From: Planotetraspora mira
GTDB taxonomy: Bacteria; Actinomycetota; Actinomycetes; Streptosporangiales; Streptosporangiaceae
DNA: 64,000 nucleotides
NCBI RefSeq assembly: GCF_016863275.1
Contig: NZ_BOOO01000024.1
Location: forward strand, 62,001 to 126,000
Reading direction: 5' to 3'
A program made the position numbers and the translations under genes. The first letter of the stretch is position 1, and each line of letters opens with the position of its first letter. The notes under the pieces were generated by a model, which saw nothing but the letters and a program-made list of their open reading frames with translations, was not told where the DNA came from and did not search any database. Positions 9,427 through 41,927 of this stretch are shown piece by piece.

Positions 9427-9598
9427 GTGATCATGCACAGGTTCGGCCGCAGGCCCCCCGACCTGCCCCCACCCGTGGCGTGATCATGCACACATTCGTG
9501 ATCAAGCGGCCTCACCTGGGCCGACTCTTTTTCGTGATCATGCGCAGGTTCGCGATCAGCTAGGCCGACCTGCGCGGATGCGTTCCGTGATCATGCAC
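9427..9598 (+). repeat. 53-bp-period repeat array A (4 units), 3' of the DUF2342 gene
   Basis: Cores of GTGATCATGC[A/G]C begin at 9427, 9480, 9534 and 9587, that is at intervals of 53, 54 and 53. Each full unit reads core, then (A/G)(G/A)(G/A)TTCG (unit positions 13-19), a variable stretch, and a second conserved block (G/C)A(C/G)CTG at unit positions 34-39. The third unit has GCGC where the others have GCAC. The fourth unit diverges after its core because the tilS start region takes over (ATG 9618). Orientation is the same as the upstream gene. The same unit occurs at 23717-24312 and 40894-41064. Confidence 0.9.
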
Positions 9599-19394: not shown

Positions 19395-19660
19395 GGGACC
19401 CCGGCCATGGCGTCGTACGGCGGAGCCCGCGCTTGCCCGGCACACCTCGTGCCGGACCTGGTCCTCACCCGGGGCACCCCGCCGCGGACGCGAGGGTTGC
19501 CGGCCAGCGAGCCGGGGCTTGACGCTGGCGCTCATGACCTGATGTGGACTATAACCGACGGCCCCCAGTCGTCCGCAAATCCCCAGGTGAACCGGCCGAT
19601 GACGGCGAATCGGGCAGTGATCCGGGTGCGGTCCGCGGCCAGGATCCGTATGGTGGCTTT

Positions 19661-21978: not shown

Positions 21979-22869
21979 ATGGACACTAGTGACCGCCCGG
22001 GGCGGCTCGCCGTGGGAGTGCTCGGCGCGGGACGGGTCGGCTCCGTTCTGGGAGCCGCGCTCGTGCTCGCGGGCCACCGCGTGGTGGCCGCCAGCGGGGT
22101 CTCGGACGCGTCCCACAGACGGGCCACCGAGCGGCTGGCAGTCGAGCTGACCCGGCCGGACGAGGTGATCACCCGATCCGATCTGGTGCTGCTCACCGTG
22201 CCGGACGACGTCCTTCCAGGACTCGTCGCCGGTCTGGCGGCCACCGGAGCCGATCTGCGCGGCAAGCTGCTCGTGCACGCCAGCGGCGCGTACGGCCTGG
22301 ACGTCCTCGGCCCGGCGACCGACCTGGGGGCGCTGCCCCTGGCCCTGCACCCCGTGATGACGTTCACCGGCAGGGACGACGATCTCGTCAGGCTGAACGG
22401 ATGCTCGTTCGGCGTCACGGCGCCCGCGATGTTGCGGCCGGTGGCCGAGGCGCTGGTGATCGAGATGGGCGGCGAGCCGGTGTGGATCGCCGACCAGGAC
22501 CGGGCGCTGTATCACGCCGCCATCGCCGGCGCGGCCAACCACATGGTCACGCTGATCGCCGAGTCGCAGGAACTGCTCGGCCGGATCGGGGTCGAGCATC
22601 CCGGCCGGTTGCTCGGCCCGCTGCTCGGGGCCGCTCTGGACAACGTGCTGCGGCTCGGCATCGCCGGGCTGACCGGCCCTGTGGTGCGCGGCGACGCGGG
22701 GACAGTGCGCAAGCATGTGGACGCGCTCATCCTGGCCGCCCCCGAGGCGGCGGACGCCTACGTGGCCCTCGCCAGGCTCACCGCGGACCGGGCGCTGGCC
22801 GCCGGACTGCTGAAGCCCGAGGCCGCCGAACGCCTGTTGGACGCATTGGGAGGAAACATATGGACGTGA
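21979..22869 (+). CDS. Rossmann-fold / DUF2520 oxidoreductase-like protein, coupled to panC
   Basis: The protein has 296 residues. The N-terminal NAD(P)-binding motif is [16 protein letters not shown]. The second half is the all-helical DUF2520 domain ([18 protein letters not shown]), the overall plan of ketopantoate- and pyrroline-5-carboxylate-reductase-like enzymes. GAGGGGAGG (21964-21972) fixes ATG 21979. The last 10 bases overlap panC, so the two are co-translated, and in actinomycetes this gene is regularly found just before panC. A role in pantothenate synthesis is an attractive inference, but the reaction is not established. Confidence 0.82.
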
Positions 22870-23720
22870 TCGTCGCAGGCGATCGCGCGGATCTGGTCAA
22901 GGCGAAGGACATGCTCGGCGCGGGGACGCTGGCCCTGGTGCCGACCATGGGGGCGCTGCATGAGGGGCATCGGTCGCTGATACGGCTCGCCCGTGAGCGT
23001 GCCGATCATGTTGCGGTAAGCATTTTCGTCAATCCACTCCAGTTCGGGCCTAACGAGGATTTTTCGCGTTATCCGAGGACATTTGATGTCGACCTGGAGG
23101 TGTGCGCGGAGGAGGGCGCCGGCGTGGTCTTCGCGCCCTCCGCCGAGGAGATGTACCTCCCGGACCGGCAGGTCGGCGTCTCCGCCGGGGAGATGGGCAC
23201 GATCGTCGAGGGCGCCTTCCGGCCCGGCCATTTCGACGGCGTCCTGACCGTGGTCCTGAAGTTGCTGAACCTGGTCCAGCCCGACGTCGCGGTCTTCGGT
23301 CAGAAGGACGCCCAGCAACTCGCGATGATCCGCCGGATGGTGGCCGATCTCGACGTCCCCGTCGCGATCGTCGGGGCGCCCACCGTGCGCGAGCCCGACG
23401 GCCTGGCCCTGTCGAGCCGCAACCGCTACCTGTCGGCACGGGAACGGGCGACCGCGCTGTCCCTTTCTCAGGCCCTCGCGGCGGGGGCCGCGGAGACCAC
23501 GCCGGCCAGGGTCCTGGCGGCTGCGAAAGCCGTACTGGAGGGCGCCACGCGCCTGGATCCGCCCCTCCTCCTGGATTACGTGGAACTGGTCGACCCCATG
23601 ACGTTCCGGCCGGTGGACGACGACCACCAGGACGAGGCCCTCCTCGTCGTGGCCGCCAAAGTCGGCACCACCCGCCTGATCGACAACACCCCCATCCTCC
23701 CCACACCCCCTCCGGCGTGA
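22860..23720 (+). CDS. panC: Pantothenate synthetase (pantoate-beta-alanine ligase)
   Basis: The protein has 286 residues and makes pantothenate from pantoate, beta-alanine and ATP. Signatures are [12 protein letters not shown] (HIGH-like nucleotide-binding motif), [33 protein letters not shown] and [10 protein letters not shown] (KMSKS-like loop). GGAGGAAA precedes ATG 22860, which lies inside the DUF2520 gene. The stop codon TGA (23718-23720) is provided by the GTGATCATGCAC core of the first unit of repeat array B. Type III pantothenate kinase (coaX) lies 3.2 kb downstream in the same direction. Confidence 0.96.
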
Positions 23721-23940
23721 TCATGCACAAGTTCGTGAATCGGCCCCCTCGCCTGCCCTTCCCTCGGGCGTGATCATGCACAGATTCGTGGATTGCCCTA
23801 CTGACCTGCGGCACTCCACTTCGTGATCATGCACGGATTCGGCGCCGGGCCGCTTGAGCTGGGCGTTTCCGGTTCGTGATCATGCGCAAGTTCGGTACGG
23901 CATGGCCTGAGCTGGGACTTCCCGCTTGGTGATCATGCAC
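23717..23940 (+). repeat. 53-bp-period repeat array B, left arm (5 units)
   Basis: Cores begin at 23717, 23770, 23823, 23876 and 23929, exactly 53 apart, all in the orientation of panC. The fourth core has GCGC instead of GCAC. Unit structure is as in array A, with a second block around unit positions 34-39 (GCCTG, GACCTG, GAGCTG, GAGCTG). The fifth unit keeps little beyond its core. Every unit has a counterpart at equal distance from the centre in the right arm (24089-24312). Confidence 0.92.
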
Positions 23941-24088
23941 GGCCATGCCCTCCCCGTACGGCGATGCGGCCCTGCCGTACGGGAGCGACGTGAAGCAGGC
24001 CGCGATGCCGGGTGCGCCGGTTGGGCCGATGAACCCATACCTGCACGTGATCGCCCGTCAGGACAGGGCGGGGTGCAAGTCTCGGCTT
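23941..24088. other. Central spacer between the two arms of repeat locus B
   Basis: These 148 bases hold no credible gene. The only structure I see is a 9-bp perfect stem, CCCGTACGG (23953-23961) with CCGTACGGG (23975-23983). It would form a side hairpin in the apical part of the larger fold made by the two repeat arms. Confidence 0.6.
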
Positions 24089-24312
24089 GTGCATGATCGA
24101 GAACCGTGCAGGTCCAGCTCAACGCGTACAACGTCGAACCTGCGCATGATCACGGACCGGAAGCGCCCAGGTCGAAGGGTGTGCCACCGAATCCGTGCAT
24201 GATCACGAAGAGGATCGCCGCAGGTCAACGGGCCAATCCACGAACCTGTGCATGATCACCCCCCAAGAAAGGGCACGTGAGAGGCCAGATTCACGAACCT
24301 GTGCATGATCAC
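24089..24312 (-). repeat. 53-bp-period repeat array B, right arm (5 units, inverted)
   Basis: Inverted cores (G[T/C]GCATGATCAC, first copy ending GA) begin at 24089, 24142, 24195, 24248 and 24301, again exactly 53 apart. Read on the minus strand from 24312, the units match the left-arm units in the same order. By hand count the first, second and third pairs share about 43, 45 and 42 of 53 bases, and the GCGC variant is again in the fourth unit. The arms are therefore a long inverted repeat with its centre near 24014. Confidence 0.92.
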
Positions 24313-24318
24313 GGCCAA

Positions 24319-24338
24319 GGGAGGGTGGGGGTGGGGGG
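24319..24338 (+). promoter_or_regulatory. G-quadruplex motif upstream of the nadB-nadC gene
   Basis: Four G runs of 3, 3, 5 and 6 are separated by single bases (GGGAGGGTGGGGGTGGGGGG), a textbook intramolecular G4 on the coding strand, ending 53 bases before the nadB start codon. More G runs follow. It could affect transcription or the mRNA leader. Confidence 0.6.
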
Positions 24339-24391
24339 GATACGGGGAAAGGGGGGCGTTATCGTCATATTGACGAAAGGGGAACCCCCTC

Positions 24392-26890
24392 ATGGTGGCG
24401 ATACCGAGAAAGCTGACGGCTCCCGCTCCCGGATGGAGTGTGGACGCCGACGTCGTCGTGGTCGGGTCGGGCATCGCCGGCCTGACGGCGGCCCTGACCT
24501 ACATCGAGCTCGCCCCTGAGGCGCGGGTCCTCGTCGTCACCAAGGACGTGCTGTCCGCCGGATCCACCCGATGGGCCCAGGGCGGCATCGCGGCGGTCCT
24601 CGACCCCGAGGACACCCCCGACGAGCACCTCAACGACACCCTCATCGCGGGCGTCGGACTCTGCGACGAGGAGGCCGTGCGGATCCTGGTCACCGAGGGC
24701 CCCGACGCGCTGAAGCGGCTCATCGGGCACGGGGCCCGTTTCGACCGGGACAGCGACGGCGAGCTCCAGCTCACCCGCGAGGGGGGCCATCGCCGCAATC
24801 GGATCGTCCATGCGGGCGGCGACGCCACCGGTGCCGAGGTGCAGCGCGCCCTCACCCAGGCCGTCCTCGCCGAGCCGCGCATCGAGATCATCGAGCACGC
24901 CCTCGTCCTCGACCTCCTCCAGGACGAGACAGGCCGTGCGAGCGGCGTGACCCTGCACGTCATGGGAGAGGGCGCCAGGGACGGCGTCGGCGCCGCGAAC
25001 GCCGGGGCCGTCGTCCTGGCCAGTGGCGGCATGGGCCAGGTCTACGCGGCCACGACCAACCCGGTCGTCTCCACGGGTGACGGTGTCGCGCTGGCCCTCC
25101 GTGCCGGAGCGGTCGTGCGGGACGTCGAGTTCGTCCAGTTCCACCCGACGGTCCTCTGGCTCGGCGAGGGCTCGACGGGCCAGCAGCCCCTGGTGTCGGA
25201 GGCGGTCCGCGGCGAGGGCGCCGTCCTGATCGACGTGAACGGCGACCGGTTCATGCAGGGCGTGCACGAGCTCGCCGACCTCGCGCCGCGCGACGTCGTG
25301 GCCAAGGCGATCACCAGGAAGATGCACGAGACCGGCGCCGACCACGTCTACCTGGACGCCCGGGACTTCGGCGAGGAGAAGTGGCGGGCGAGGTTCCCGA
25401 CGATCCTCGCGGTCTGCCGCGAGCACGGCATCGACCCGGTCACGGAGCCGATCCCGGTCGCGCCGGCCGCCCACTACGCCAGCGGCGGCGTCCGCACCGA
25501 CCTGTACGGCAGGACCAGCGTTCCCGGCCTCTACGCCTGCGGTGAGGTGGCCTGCACAGGCGTCCACGGCGCCAACCGACTCGCCTCCAACTCCTTGCTC
25601 GAGGGTCTCGTCTTCGCCGAGCGCATCGCCTCCGACCTGGTCGCCCACACGAGGACACCGAAGAAGGCGGACGCGCTGCACCGGCCTGAGGGCCTGGTCG
25701 ACCCCCGGGTCAGGGCCCGGATCCAGAGCCACATGAGCCGGGGCGCCGGGGTGCTCCGCAGCGAGGAGAGCCTGGCCGAGGTCGCCCGCGCCCTCGAGAA
25801 CGCCCGCTGGACCCCGGTCGCCGTCGAGCCCTGCACCGAGTCGTGGGAGGCCACGAACCTGCTCACGGTCGCGTCCGCTCTGGTCGCGGCGGCGAAGGAG
25901 CGGGAGGAGACCCGCGGCGCCCACTGGCGTGAGGACCACCCGGAACGCGACGACGACCGCTGGCGGCTGCACATCGACATCTCGCTTGGAACGGAAGGAC
26001 TGCTCATGCGACACCAGGCCCACGACATCGACGCCGAGCTGACCGGTCTGGGCATCGAGCCCGCCCAGCTCAGCCACCTGGTGTCCACGGCTCTCGACGA
26101 GGACCTCGCCGGCGGGCTGGACGTGACGTCGGCCGCCACCATCCCCACGGACCAGACCGCCGTGGCCGACCTGGTCGCCCGCAAGGAGGGCGTGGTCGCC
26201 GGGCTCGTGGTCGCCGAGGCCGTCTTCCGCCAGGCCGGCCCGGAGACGGTCGTCGAGCGCCGGGTCAAGGACGGCGACCGGGTCGGCCCCGGAGACGTTC
26301 TCATGACCGTCCACGGCCGCACGAGGGACCTGCTCACCATGGAGCGGACCGCGCTGAACTTCCTCACGCACCTGTCGGGCGTCGCCACCGCCACCAGCCG
26401 GTGGGTGGACGCGGTCGCCGGGACGAAGGCCCGCGTACGGGACACCCGCAAGACGCTGCCGGGCCTGCGCGCACTGGAGAAGTACGCGGTGCACTGCGGC
26501 GGCGGGGTGAACCACCGGATGGGCCTCCACGACGCCGCCCTGATCAAGGACAACCACGTGGTTGCGGCGGGAGGCGTCGCCGAGGCGTTCCGTGCCGTAC
26601 GGCAGGCCTTCCCCGATGTGGCGATCGAGGTCGAGGTGGACCGGATCGACCAGATCGAGCCGGTCCTGGCCGAGGGCGCCGAGGAGATCCTGCTCGACAA
26701 CTTCACGGTGGATCAGCTCGCCGAGGCCGTACGGCTGGTCGGAGGGCGGGCACGCCTGGAGTCCAGCGGCGGGCTGACCCTTGACAGCGCCCGCGCCGTG
26801 GCCGAGACCGGAGTCGACTATCTGGCGGTCGGAGCCCTCACGCATTCGGCTTCGGCGCTGGACATTGGCCTGGATCTTCGTGGTGCATAA
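24392..26890 (+). CDS. nadB-nadC: Fused L-aspartate oxidase and quinolinate phosphoribosyltransferase (NadB-NadC)
   Basis: One open frame of 832 residues contains two complete NAD-synthesis enzymes. Residues 1 to about 530 are FAD-dependent L-aspartate oxidase (GSGIAGLTAAL, TRWAQGGIAAV, VEFVQFHPT, GEVACTGVHGANRLASNSLLEG). Residues about 539-832 are quinolinate phosphoribosyltransferase (DVTSAATIP, RTALNFLTHLSGVAT, DTRKTLPGLR, KYAVHCGGGVNHRMGL, KDNHV). In most actinomycetes these are adjacent separate genes. Here no stop lies between them. ATG 26006 inside the joint is preceded by GGAAGGA at good spacing, so free NadC may also be made. nadA is not in the window. The start at 24392 has GAAAGGGGA before it. 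Confidence 0.9.
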   Translation: MVAIPRKLTAPAPGWSVDADVVVVGSGIAGLTAALTYIELAPEARVLVVTKDVLSAGSTRWAQGGIAAVLDPEDTPDEHLNDTLIAGVGLCDEEAVRILVTEGPDALKRLIGHGARFDRDSDGELQLTREGGHRRNRIVHAGGDATGAEVQRALTQAVLAEPRIEIIEHALVLDLLQDETGRASGVTLHVMGEGARDGVGAANAGAVVLASGGMGQVYAATTNPVVSTGDGVALALRAGAVVRDVEFVQFHPTVLWLGEGSTGQQPLVSEAVRGEGAVLIDVNGDRFMQGVHELADLAPRDVVAKAITRKMHETGADHVYLDARDFGEEKWRARFPTILAVCREHGIDPVTEPIPVAPAAHYASGGVRTDLYGRTSVPGLYACGEVACTGVHGANRLASNSLLEGLVFAERIASDLVAHTRTPKKADALHRPEGLVDPRVRARIQSHMSRGAGVLRSEESLAEVARALENARWTPVAVEPCTESWEATNLLTVASALVAAAKEREETRGAHWREDHPERDDDRWRLHIDISLGTEGLLMRHQAHDIDAELTGLGIEPAQLSHLVSTALDEDLAGGLDVTSAATIPTDQTAVADLVARKEGVVAGLVVAEAVFRQAGPETVVERRVKDGDRVGPGDVLMTVHGRTRDLLTMERTALNFLTHLSGVATATSRWVDAVAGTKARVRDTRKTLPGLRALEKYAVHCGGGVNHRMGLHDAALIKDNHVVAAGGVAEAFRAVRQAFPDVAIEVEVDRIDQIEPVLAEGAEEILLDNFTVDQLAEAVRLVGGRARLESSGGLTLDSARAVAETGVDYLAVGALTHSASALDIGLDLRGA

Positions 26891-32636: not shown

Positions 32637-32689
32637 CGTACGGACGGGGTCGCCGTGTGATGCGCAGATGGTCACACGGTTCCGTACGG
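32637..32689 (-). promoter_or_regulatory. Expression-platform hairpin between the riboswitch and the start of the NlpC/P60 gene
   Basis: CCGTGTGA (32653-32660) pairs with TCACACGG (32672-32679), and outside it GTACGGACGG-like bases near 32637-32646 can pair with CCGTACGG (32682-32689). The combined stem is long, has no T run and sits 11 bases from the ribosome-binding site. It could work as the switch's regulatory helix or as a Rho-related structure. Confidence 0.5.
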
Positions 32690-32694
32690 CACTC

Positions 32695-32825
32695 CTTGCC
32701 GCCTACCGGGTTAGCTGACGGGTTCGGGCCGGAGTAGCCCTACCTTTCGGATTCACCCCTTGTTGATCTAGAACGTCCAGATCCGCACAGTTGGGTCCCC
32801 GGCTCCACTTCGCACGTGAGTGCTC
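32695..32825 (-). ncRNA. c-di-AMP (ydaO-yuaA) riboswitch
   Basis: Read on the minus strand, the conserved blocks of this class are present in order: GAGCCGGGGACCCAA near the 5' end (about 32798-32784), GGGGTGAATCC (32759-32749), GGTAGGGCTACTCC, and the 3' block CCCGTCAGCTAACCCGGTAGGC (32722-32701). This combination is diagnostic for ydaO-type aptamers, which bind two c-di-AMP molecules. The aptamer lies about 90 bases upstream of the NlpC/P60 start codon. Exact ends are approximate. In known examples ligand binding turns expression down. Confidence 0.9.
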
Positions 32826-32870
32826 GGAAGACTCGGCGGCCCGGTCGCCGTGTGGGGCCACGATGACCGG

Positions 32871-33898: not shown

Positions 33899-35113
33899 GT
33901 GAGCACTGGACAGCCGCCGTACCCGCAGGAAGATCCGGATGGTTCGCCTCCGGCCCGCGGACGCGACCGCCAGGACACCGAGCAGTCCCAGCAGGGCTAC
34001 GACCCGGACGCCACGATCGTCGGCCAGCCGGGTCCGCAGCAGGGATACGGGTACGGCCAGCAGCCCGGCACTCCTCAAGGCCAGCAGGGTTACGGCCAGC
34101 AGGGATACGGCCAGCCGCAGTATGGCCAGCAGGGCTATGGCCAACAGGGCTACGGTCAGCAGCAGTACGGCCAGCAGGCGCAGCAGGGGGCCAACCCCCA
34201 GCAGCCCGGCCATCCGTACGGACAGCCGCCGGCGCAGCCTCAGGACCAGGGAGGTCAGGGCGGCTACGGCCAGCAGCCTCCCAACCCCTATGGCCAGCAG
34301 ACTCCGAACCCCTACGCTCAGCAGCCGGCCCAGCCGTACGGTCAGGGCCAGCAGGGTTACGGCCAGCCGCAGTACGGTCAGCAGGGCTATGGCCAGCAGG
34401 GTTACGGTCAGCCCGATTACGGCCAGACGCAGCAGTACGGTCAGGGCCAGCCCGGATACGGCCAGCAGCCTTACGGCCAGCAGCCCTATGGTCAGCAGGG
34501 TTATGGCCAGCCCGGGTACGGCCAGCCCGCTTATGGACAACCCGCCTACGGTCAGCCGGGGTACGGCCAGCAGTACGGCGCTCCCGCGGCGATTCCGCCG
34601 GGTGCGCCGGCGCCGCTCGCCGAGTGGTGGCAGCGACTGGTCGCGAGGATCATCGACGGCGTCATCGTCTATGTCCCGTTCCTCATCATCTCGGCGATCA
34701 TCACCGCCGTAGTGGTCACGAACGCCGGTTATGACGCCGAAACAGGAGTCGTGACGTTGGAAAGCGGCGTCTTCCTCGCCGCCTTGCTCAGCGCCTTGGT
34801 CGGTGGCGTCGGGATGATCGCCTACGAGTTCCTCATGCTCCGGCAGCGAGGACAGACCTTCGGAAAAATGGCCATGGGCATCAAGGTCGTCCAGGTCGGC
34901 GGAACGCTCGGCCCGGAAGGTCTTCCGCAGGATGTCGCGGCCAAGCGGGCCGGTGTGCTCTTCGGCCCGCAACTGATCAGATTTAACCTCCTCCTATCCT
35001 TGATCGCCGGCATCTTCGCCTTGGTGAATGCGCTCTGGCTGCTTTGGGACAAGCCGCTTAGTCAGGCGTTGCACGACAAGGTGGCCAAGACGATCGTGGT
35101 CAAGGTCAAGTAG
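33899..35113 (+). CDS. RDD-family membrane protein with a long GYGQ-rich prion-like N-terminal domain
   Basis: The protein has 404 residues from GTG 33899, with ACGAGG upstream. Residues about 30-228 are almost entirely Gly, Tyr, Gln and Pro in repeats such as GYGQQ and YGQP. Residues 240-404 are an RDD domain: the Arg-Asp motif in [12 protein letters not shown], three hydrophobic helices and the closing [21 protein letters not shown] proteins are small transport-related membrane proteins of poorly defined function, and actinobacterial versions often carry Pro/Gly-rich cytoplasmic extensions. The composition here resembles phase-separating low-complexity domains. A paralogue follows at 35278. 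A strong terminator ends this transcript. Confidence 0.85.
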
Positions 35114-40893: not shown

Positions 40894-41064
40894 CTGCATG
40901 ATCACGCGCCTGGTTTCCGCAGGTGGGGTGGGGTTCCGCCGAACCTGTGCATGATCATGCACCTGATTTCCGCAGGTGGGGTGGGGTTCCGCCGAACCTG
41001 CGCATGATCACGATCGGGGTGTGCGCAGGTCAGGTGGGATCTCGGCGAACCTGTGCATGATCAC
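40894..41064 (-). repeat. 53-bp-period repeat array C (4 units), 3' of mutY
   Basis: Inverted cores begin at 40894, 40947, 41000 and 41053, exactly 53 apart, oriented with mutY (minus strand). Reading from the mutY stop, the cores are GCAC, GCGC, GCAC (with ATG in place of GTG) and a degraded last copy. The middle units are almost identical to each other (GGCGGAACCCCACCCCACCTG). The first core overlaps the end of mutY and provides its TGA stop. Confidence 0.92.
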
Positions 41065-41927
41065 GCGGGGAGGCGGTAGGTCCCGTCTTCCAGGATCTCG
41101 GCGAGCCCGTCGTCCAGCAGGCCGTCGAGCGCCCTCTCCCGCTGGACGTGGTCGTCCCACACCGCATCCAGCGCCTCCTTCGGCACGGGGCCGTACGCCT
41201 CGCGCAGGACGGCCAGCAGCCGGCCCCTGCACTGGCGGTCGGTGCCCGCGTAGGTCTGCCCCACCCGTGCCGGTCCCGCGTGGGCCGGGCGGCCCGCCAG
41301 CCTCCAGGCGCACCGCGACGCCACCGGGCAGTCGTCGCACCTGGGGGCGCGAGCCGTACAGACCAGGGCGCCCAGCTCCATCACGGCGACCGCCCAGCGC
41401 GGGGCGCCGACGGGTGGCAACAACGACTCGGCCAGCCGCCGCTCGGCGGCCGTGGTGGCCTTCGGCGGATATTCCTCCCCCTGTACGGCTCTCGCGAGAA
41501 CCCGCCGGACGTTGGTGTCCAGGACGGCGTGGCTGCCTCCGTAGGCGAAGCTGGCCACGGCGGCCGCCGTGTAGTCGCCGATGCCCGGCAGGGCGCGCAG
41601 CTCGTCGTAGGCGGACGGAACCCGGCCGCCGTGGTCCACGGTGATGGCCTTCGCGCACGCGTGCAGGTTGAGGGCCCGCCGGGGATAGCCGAGGCGGCCC
41701 CAGTGGCGTACGGCCTCGCCTGGCGGCTCCTGGGCGAGGGACTCCGGAGTGGGCCAGCGCTCCATCCAGTCGGCCCAGATCGGGAGCACCCGGACGACGG
41801 GGGTCTGCTGGAGCATGATCTCGCTGACGAGGATTCCCCAGGGGGTCGCGTCGGGTCGCCGCCACGGCAGATCGCGGTTGTGTTCGGCGTACCAGTCCAG
41901 GATCGGTTCACGTAGTGAGGCGGCCAC
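41061..41927 (-). CDS. mutY: A/G-specific adenine glycosylase
   Basis: This 288-residue base-excision repair enzyme removes adenine mispaired with 8-oxoguanine. The N-terminus WYAEHNRDLPWRR, the SEIMLQQTPVVRVLP motif, the helix-hairpin-helix LPGIGDYTAAAVASFAYG followed by the catalytic-region VLDTNVRRVLAR, and a four-Cys [4Fe-4S] loop (CTARAPRCDDCPVASRC) are all present. The C-terminal MutT-like recognition domain is short or absent, as in actinobacterial MutY. The stop codon lies inside the repeat core at 41053-41064. GTG start; divergent from the gene at 42054. Confidence 0.93.
   Translation of the reverse strand: MAASLREPILDWYAEHNRDLPWRRPDATPWGILVSEIMLQQTPVVRVLPIWADWMERWPTPESLAQEPPGEAVRHWGRLGYPRRALNLHACAKAITVDHGGRVPSAYDELRALPGIGDYTAAAVASFAYGGSHAVLDTNVRRVLARAVQGEEYPPKATTAAERRLAESLLPPVGAPRWAVAVMELGALVCTARAPRCDDCPVASRCAWRLAGRPAHAGPARVGQTYAGTDRQCRGRLLAVLREAYGPVPKEALDAVWDDHVQRERALDGLLDDGLAEILEDGTYRLPA

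Follow-up and report, generated by a model that had tools for sequence, protein, structure and literature searches.

The chromosome of Planotetraspora mira carries a family of short arrays in which a conserved core recurs at a distance of 53 bp and in which two closely spaced arms face each other. Judged from sequence, the anatomy of these arrays is new, the function being one that we infer. No description of a 53-bp array repeat was found in the literature searched, subscription papers lying outside its scope. The arrays may be phased sites for a putative sequence-specific DNA-binding protein, which at gene ends would form a boundary to transcription from both sides, a reading that is given a probability of little more than one in three (about 0.36). 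The array from which the analysis departs lies between panC and a nadB-type gene, within a window of 64,000 nucleotides (the whole stretch of DNA that was analysed), whose numbering is used below.

The array between panC and nadB

A sequence-only reading of the window had described an imperfect inverted repeat at this locus, and the repeat is real: the cores lie in two facing arms (Table 1), every step within an arm is exactly 53 bp and a repeat search returned arms at 23690-23894 and 24135-24339 with a complementarity of 81%. The centre that it had placed near 24014 is found in the sequence, and its hand-counted identities of 43, 45 and 42 of 53 positions between mirrored units were reproduced, the values for units 0-3 being 0.81, 0.85, 0.79 and 0.68 (the fourth pair having 36 positions in common). 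The ten copies of the core that it had counted do keep the 53-bp spacing, but only nine have the exact form GTGATCATGC(A/G)C, since the innermost reverse core (24091) reads TCGATCATGC, with two changes from the other nine. Nor does the locus stand alone, as that reading had seen it, the same unit forming two further arrays in the window and hundreds of units in the genome; within the window, TGATCATGC was counted 20 times against 0.39 expected.

The TGA stop codon of panC, a gene name carried over from the earlier reading, occupies 23718-23720 and is at the same time the TGA of the first core. Some genes abutting arrays end in Pro/Thr-rich tails, as panC does at 23680-23717, as if the leader of the array had grown into the reading frame. 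No site resembling an intrinsic terminator (a short GC-rich hairpin followed by a T run) was found in 23600-24420, with 0.5 expected in shuffled sequences, and a cmscan search of the window at gathering thresholds gave no Rfam match at the array, the only two matches being riboswitches located elsewhere (Table 1). Just upstream of nadB, at 24359-24379, lies the palindrome TTATCGTCATATTGACGAA, which is present as the same or a near copy in 12/12 genomes compared, with or without an array, and is possibly an operator for NAD biosynthesis.

Table 1. Positions of the arrays and of other features in the 64,000-nucleotide window.
Feature	Position	Strand	Details
Second array of the window	9427..9597	+	Single forward arm, four cores, steps of 53, 54 and 53
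SAM-IV riboswitch	19424-19539	-	Rfam RF00634, 101.6 bits
panC (pantothenate synthetase)	22860..23720	+	ORF and 861-nt gene call both end at 23720
Forward-arm leader, C-rich and G-poor	23677..23716	+	Overlaps the panC 3' end; composition from the family-wide mean
Forward arm	23717..23940	+	Four 53-bp units and terminal core; cores start at 23717, 23770, 23823, 23876, 23929
Centre, ~148 bp	23941..24088		Holds its own hairpin, 23950-23985
Reverse arm	24089..24312	-	Cores start at 24303, 24250, 24197, 24144, and degenerate 24091
Reverse-arm leader, C-rich on the minus strand	24313..24352	-	Sequence and family-wide profile
nadB-type ORF, 832 aa	24392..26890	+	Beyond the array; ORF
c-di-AMP riboswitch (ydaO/yuaA leader)	32685-32847	-	RF00379, 66.1 bits
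Coding tandem repeats	34050-34620	+	Long GYGQQ-rich low-complexity segment
Third array of the window	40894..41067	-	Reverse arm only, with four cores; flanking genes called convergent

A genome-wide family of fixed period

In the 9.03 Mb genome of P. mira (G000), 638 pairs of cores lie exactly 53 bp apart (305 + 333), a reversed-pattern control giving 0, and these account for 638 of the 661 core pairs at distances of 49-57 bp. The same precision is seen in 864 kb of fetched sequence, where 126/129 core-to-core steps of 45-61 bp measure exactly 53. These 864 kb hold 29 arrays, of which 15 consist of two convergent arms and 14 of a single arm, and 38 of their 44 arms carry 4 or 5 cores. Approximately 145 arrays are estimated for the genome (29 x 638/128, the 864 kb containing 128 of the 638 pairs), a figure based on pair counts and not on density per kb, as the C4 stretches were picked for known arrays and the density in the 864 kb is thus not a fair sample.

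Wherever two arms lie within 250 bp of each other they converge, in 48/48 cases across eight genomes and in 15/15 in P. mira alone, the pooled counts not being independent because orthologous arrays of G000, G001 and G003 were counted separately. At separations of 0.25-3 kb there are six pairs of neighbouring arms, of which four converge, one diverges and one is parallel. Cargo genes between distant arms were rejected: the genes enclosed there recur only between G211 and G212 and, by eye, seem to encode an ABC transporter ATPase, a DUF-type protein and enzymes of an ordinary kind. A phage or plasmid origin was also discarded: viral_contigs held no match with the correct 53-bp spacing for either of two dialects, and plasmid and phage records held no array match.

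Units, leaders and gene ends

An arm usually lines up 2-5 cores, each consisting of GTGATC(A/T)TGC followed by a lineage-specific tag that ends in TTCG, TTCC or TCGCA. In P. mira the unit comprises the core GTGATCATGC, the tag (A/G)CAGGTTCG and, at unit position 32-39, a second conserved block, YGACCWGS (block B), while in the last core of an arm only GTGATCATGCA conforms to the consensus. The centre between two arms is variable, in many cases of about 15 bp, and in G212 the outer and the inner units tend toward different tags. A length of 53 bp corresponds to five helical turns at 10.6 bp.

Outside the arm lies a leader of some 40-80 nt in which the excess of C climbs toward the array. Over the 40 nt outside the first core, C averages 0.50 and G 0.20 (44 arms), as against 0.35 and 0.34 after 397 control stop codons (p=1e-20); this bias is seen in five genomes, and C exceeds G by at least 0.2 in 93/132 leaders. 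Arms that face gene starts have C-rich leaders as well (0.28 vs 0.39), which indicates that the bias is not solely a feature of 3' untranslated regions. A G-quadruplex role of the leaders was rejected, the motif occurring in 25/132 of them with 24.0 expected from shuffles.

With gene calls from a home-made codon-usage caller, and with counts that omit the stretches of G002 and G079, any array at the end of a stretch and six arrays that had no close neighbours, 30/78 arrays lie between convergent genes (background 141/877) and 5/78 between divergent genes (background 238/877). On arms facing a gene's 3' end, the median distance from stop codon to first core is 18 nt (85 arms, six genomes), and the TGA of the core itself is the stop codon in 15 of these 85, as it is, by eye, in 7/29 arrays of P. 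mira. Single arms are oriented in sense with the outer gene in 26 cases and in antisense in 9; in tandem settings alone the numbers are 12 and 7, which suggests a loose coupling to the direction of transcription.

Constraint, copying and pairing

The spacers of the units appear to have drifted freely. Spacer identity over all G000 unit pairs averages 0.466, where 0.470 is predicted from the base composition of each column; units of different arrays average 0.465 with a maximum of 0.781 (8465 pairs), and the pairs with an identity of at least 0.85 (8 of 8778) all lie within one array. By comparison, T16, C17 and G38 are fixed in 133/133 G000 units, and the tag TTCG and block B are near-invariant, neither the tag nor the block having played a part in finding units. 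Between G000 and G001, in the 19 of 57 orthologous units with an identity of at least 0.66, the tag and block B differ at 42/285 sites and the rest at 140/513 (p=5e-5), while the core differs at 6/209, a figure biased by the arms having been found by their core. As the similarity of spacers between arrays does not exceed what composition predicts, selection, and not recent copying, is the best explanation of the core that the arrays have in common.

Copying of another kind was nonetheless suggested by the sequence-only reading, which had offered an inverted duplication of an array or a structure kept by pairing. The former does occur: among cross-arm unit pairs, identities of at least 0.8 are found in 8/117 in mirror register and in 5/274 of the others, which points to occasional inverted copying between arms. 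The latter, a long RNA or cruciform hairpin maintained by base pairing, is now very improbable. It could draw on the predicted folding energy of the 601-nt RNA of the panC–nadB array (-400 kcal/mol vs a mean of -248 in 20 shuffles, z -26) and on the hairpin of the centre, 23950-23985, formed by CTCCCCGTACGG / CCGTACGGGAG, both sides of which have changed in G003, to CTTTCCATACGG / CCGTACGGAAAG (by eye, at one locus). Yet 14/29 arrays have a single arm, and spacers in mirror register average 0.508 identity, near the 0.461 of other cross-arm pairs. When the panC–nadB locus was compared with that of the sister genome G003, changes on one side had abolished 15 pairs and created 16, with a further 6 unpaired before and after, and of nine positions changed on both sides two stayed paired, two became paired, one lost pairing and four remained unpaired; G-T mismatches showed no enrichment over A-C (39 vs 50, loci compared). 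The arms thus diverge independently and without a wobble bias, which indicates that a hairpin is not the conserved feature. The sequence-only reading had named as evidence against itself the independent evolution of the arms together with a unit confined to this locus; the arms do evolve independently, and the unit occurs elsewhere too.

A folded RNA within each unit was likewise rejected, as no base-pair covariation was seen inside the unit in 206 units and no pairing excess above 0.11. The consensus of P. mira contains CAGGT...ACCTG, which could pair, and this is broken in the dialects of G004 (AAGT) and G212.

Occurrence and dialects

Triplets of GTGATC spaced by 53 bp were found in 13/345 genomes of the order, belonging to 4/70 genera, and in 3/393 genomes of a class sample (G000, G070 and G617, the repeat of the last being unrelated), a triple pattern that may overlook arrays whose cores differ. 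The four genera comprise Planotetraspora, a neighbour of it (represented by Planotetraspora sp. A-T 1434), Microbispora and the genus of G211 and G212, the names Planotetraspora and Microbispora having been inferred from nadB identities. Repeats at other lags stand near nadB in Micromonospora (59/60), Nocardioides (57), Streptosporangium (70) and Microtetraspora (51), with sequences unrelated by eye; those of Micromonospora (L146, L148, L150) are tandem 59/60-bp repeats with GAGCG(C/G)GAGGAGTGAGC near nadB/panC genes.

The tag differs between lineages in concert. In P. mira (A/G)C follows TGATCATGC in 601/638 pairs, whereas in G004, a genome near P. thailandica, the tag is CAGAAGTTCG, 668/679 pairs lack the (A/G)C of P. 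mira and the two positions after TGATCATGC are AG in 53/53 fetched units. Other tags are CACNGGTTCC in G062, CAGTTTGTCGCA in G079 and one ending in CTCGCA in G212, with block B and GTGATC constant across the dialects.

With the nadB-type ORF as a guide, the orthologous site was located in 11 other genomes. The panC–nadB array is present in G000, G001, G003, G004, G062 and G079, has shrunk in G002 to a single core in each direction and is missing from G090 and G199; in G069, G074 and G076 another gene occupies the site. On contig C1, 12/13 arrays occur in G001 at the same site and with the same arm orientation, while conservation of position across genera is seen at panC–nadB and at one of three mappable G212 arrays. 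In G002, which is close to Planotetraspora phitsanulokensis, 7/13 of the contig C1 arrays keep two or more cores, six of these as single arms; two-arm arrays have mostly been deleted or have collapsed to at most one unit each way and single arms have mostly been kept, and the array family of this genome is in decay. Since 10/15 Microbispora-type genomes are also without a triple-pattern match (variant cores could be missed), the losses there and in G002 indicate that the arrays are dispensable.

Proposed function

In the mechanism proposed, a protein recognising approximately 20 bp would bind cooperatively on one face of the DNA, at sites five helical turns apart, and its specificity would have drifted together with the tag, producing the dialects. 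RNA arriving from either side would first expose a C-rich, G-poor stretch of the Rho-loading kind, and RNA polymerase would next meet a series of protein roadblocks in the form of the bound array. The arms at panC–nadB may have turned mirror-like through inverted copying, a possible hairpin being a by-product. A protein at phased sites of this length would explain why the spacing is exact although the spacers drift, why block B and the tag are constrained and why the dialect switches. Filaments of H-NS, described as pausing polymerase and helping termination, are a known parallel (PMC4337669). Rho-dependent terminators (rut) combined with protein roadblocks resemble the arrays in that a C-rich, G-poor stretch precedes a possible block, often at gene ends, and such a stretch is found ahead of the presumed stop zone (mean C 0.50, G 0.20, 40 nt); the arrays differ from these systems in that they are sequence-specific and phased, have two sides and are inherited as an element.

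The 53-bp spacing, the 48/48 convergence, the preference for convergent genes, the leader bias and the 12/13 sites common with G001 argue for such a boundary, and Rho is encoded in 44/44 genomes tested. Against it stand the tandem single arms, 12 in sense and 7 in antisense, which would be a weak bias for a pure terminator, the C-rich leader on arms facing gene starts, the lack of an intrinsic-terminator-like site at the locus and the dispensability of the arrays. It is put forward only tentatively that directional, helically phased binding arrays insulate gene ends both ways, possibly with Rho, are read by a putative factor whose specificity shifts from species to species, taking hundreds of sites to another dialect at once, and would form a new chromosome element.

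A second, shorter Rho gene lies beside the canonical one (L260 2923-4152, on contig C59 of G000; also L261, L262 and L263). Immediately upstream of it, G000 and G004 each have three cores and G062 has one exact core, and each of these genomes also carries a two-arm array farther downstream. An array of G002 stops 350 bp ahead of the gene, and G079 has none. As a dedicated factor of the arrays the short Rho was rejected, since relatives that lack arrays encode it and it was not found in the array-bearing G211 and G212; since it does not track the arrays across genomes, no link is claimed.

Alternative explanations

Somewhat less probable than a boundary, and itself rather unlikely, is a role in chromosome architecture, where phased arrays bound by a putative protein would anchor loops, domains or segregation complexes, gene ends would merely be tolerant places and the convergent pairing of arms would matter as it does at paired loop anchors. 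The spread of the arrays over the fetched contigs (29 in 864 kb), their strict convergent pairing, their scarcity at divergent promoters and the loose orientation relative to transcription (12 vs 7) are consistent with it. Beyond 3 kb, however, no strict orientation rule holds, 14/56 neighbours having the same orientation, which also disposes of a strict alternation of arms along the chromosome; the losses in G002 and most Microbispora-type genomes weigh against such a role too, and it leaves the C-rich leader unexplained. A quite different protein is supposed if the rows are promoter-like and point inward, block B being the -35 element (CTGACC/TTGACC), GATCAT/GATCTT in the next core, 18 bp away, the -10 element, and RNA polymerase holoenzyme or an alternative sigma factor the bound protein. 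A consensus promoter scan of 23600-24420 did return a site, TTGACC-18-GATCAT at 24228-24199 on the minus strand, with 0.2 expected in shuffles, but this is the single unit of the locus to pass, the first -10 base is an invariant G and an invariant core with a dialect tag is atypical of promoters, so that this explanation is held to be very unlikely. The least probable of all is neutral tandem and inverted duplication without function: arms lose and gain units and spacers drift freely, as it predicts, but the tag and block B show fewer changes than the remaining sites (42/285 vs 140/513), the length is exact despite the drift and convergence is 48/48, and the explanation is contradicted unless constraint, exact length and convergence all have a mutational cause.

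By distribution, the nearest known kind of element is REP/BIME, and selfish or domesticated repeats of the REPIN/BIME type, kept and spread by a dedicated enzyme, are an improbable though not negligible alternative. Palindromic unit, transposase and orientation were the features compared (PMC3733652, PMC2817692). The arrays are like REPs in being intergenic, of high copy number, species-specific, arranged as inverted pairs between convergent and tandem genes and few between divergent ones (PMC3733652). They differ in lacking a palindrome kept across dialects (the REP unit being an imperfect palindrome of 20-40 bp) and a GTAG/CGTC head, and their arms are direct repeats at 53 bp, the units of an arm sharing one orientation and the two arms converging, whereas neighbours in BIMEs alternate. 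A search for the Y1 transposase (PF01797) gave 0 matches in G000 and a match in 14/26 genomes searched; the enzyme is found in six of the 13 array-bearing genomes (G004, G070, G076, G080, G211, G212) but missing in seven (G000, G001, G002, G003, G062, G074, G079), and of the four genomes that exceed 500 pairs three are in this second group (G000, G001, G003); a RAYT/REP system was rejected on this ground. Spacers of different arrays show no ancestry signal and the 12/13 sites common with G001 speak against recent spread there, so that the REPIN/BIME explanation is already weakened; the sequence-only reading, which had found a match neither with REP/BIME nor with CRISPR, is supported in both respects by the defining features tested. 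CRISPR loci have identical repeats, unique spacers and one or few loci, and here YGACCWGS is conserved within the spacers and 29 separate sites occur in 864 kb. Foldback elements with modular inverted repeats are known from Drosophila. They share with the arrays the inverted arms of tandem modules around a variable centre, and differ from them in that about half of the arrays have a single arm and 12/13 contig C1 sites are common with G001.

Self-DNA marks comparable to Neisserial DNA uptake sequences (DUS), read by an uptake or transfer receptor and isolating species through their dialects, would be a less probable explanation again. The DUS dialects of the Neisseriaceae are the nearest known case of a concerted switch, and the genome-wide dialect switch and the inverted pairs near gene ends resemble them (PMC3630211). 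Both are short sequences in hundreds of copies, and the genome-wide, concerted difference between related species that marks DUS is found in the arrays, whose tag varies by lineage. The arrays are unlike DUS in being phased and in having larger units, a second block and a leader. DUS are single 10-12-mers and not 53-bp phased arrays, and we know of no DNA uptake by array-bearing organisms.

Implications

A signal of approximately 20 bp that occupies hundreds of sites in fixed helical phase and differs in concert between species is the trace expected from co-evolution with one trans-acting factor. To our knowledge, no such factor is known in the Planotetraspora lineage. Finding it would reveal either a bacterial system of insulation or termination that is new, a protein of chromosome architecture or another case of genome-wide sequence dialects, and would make it possible to study how binding sites in their hundreds change jointly.
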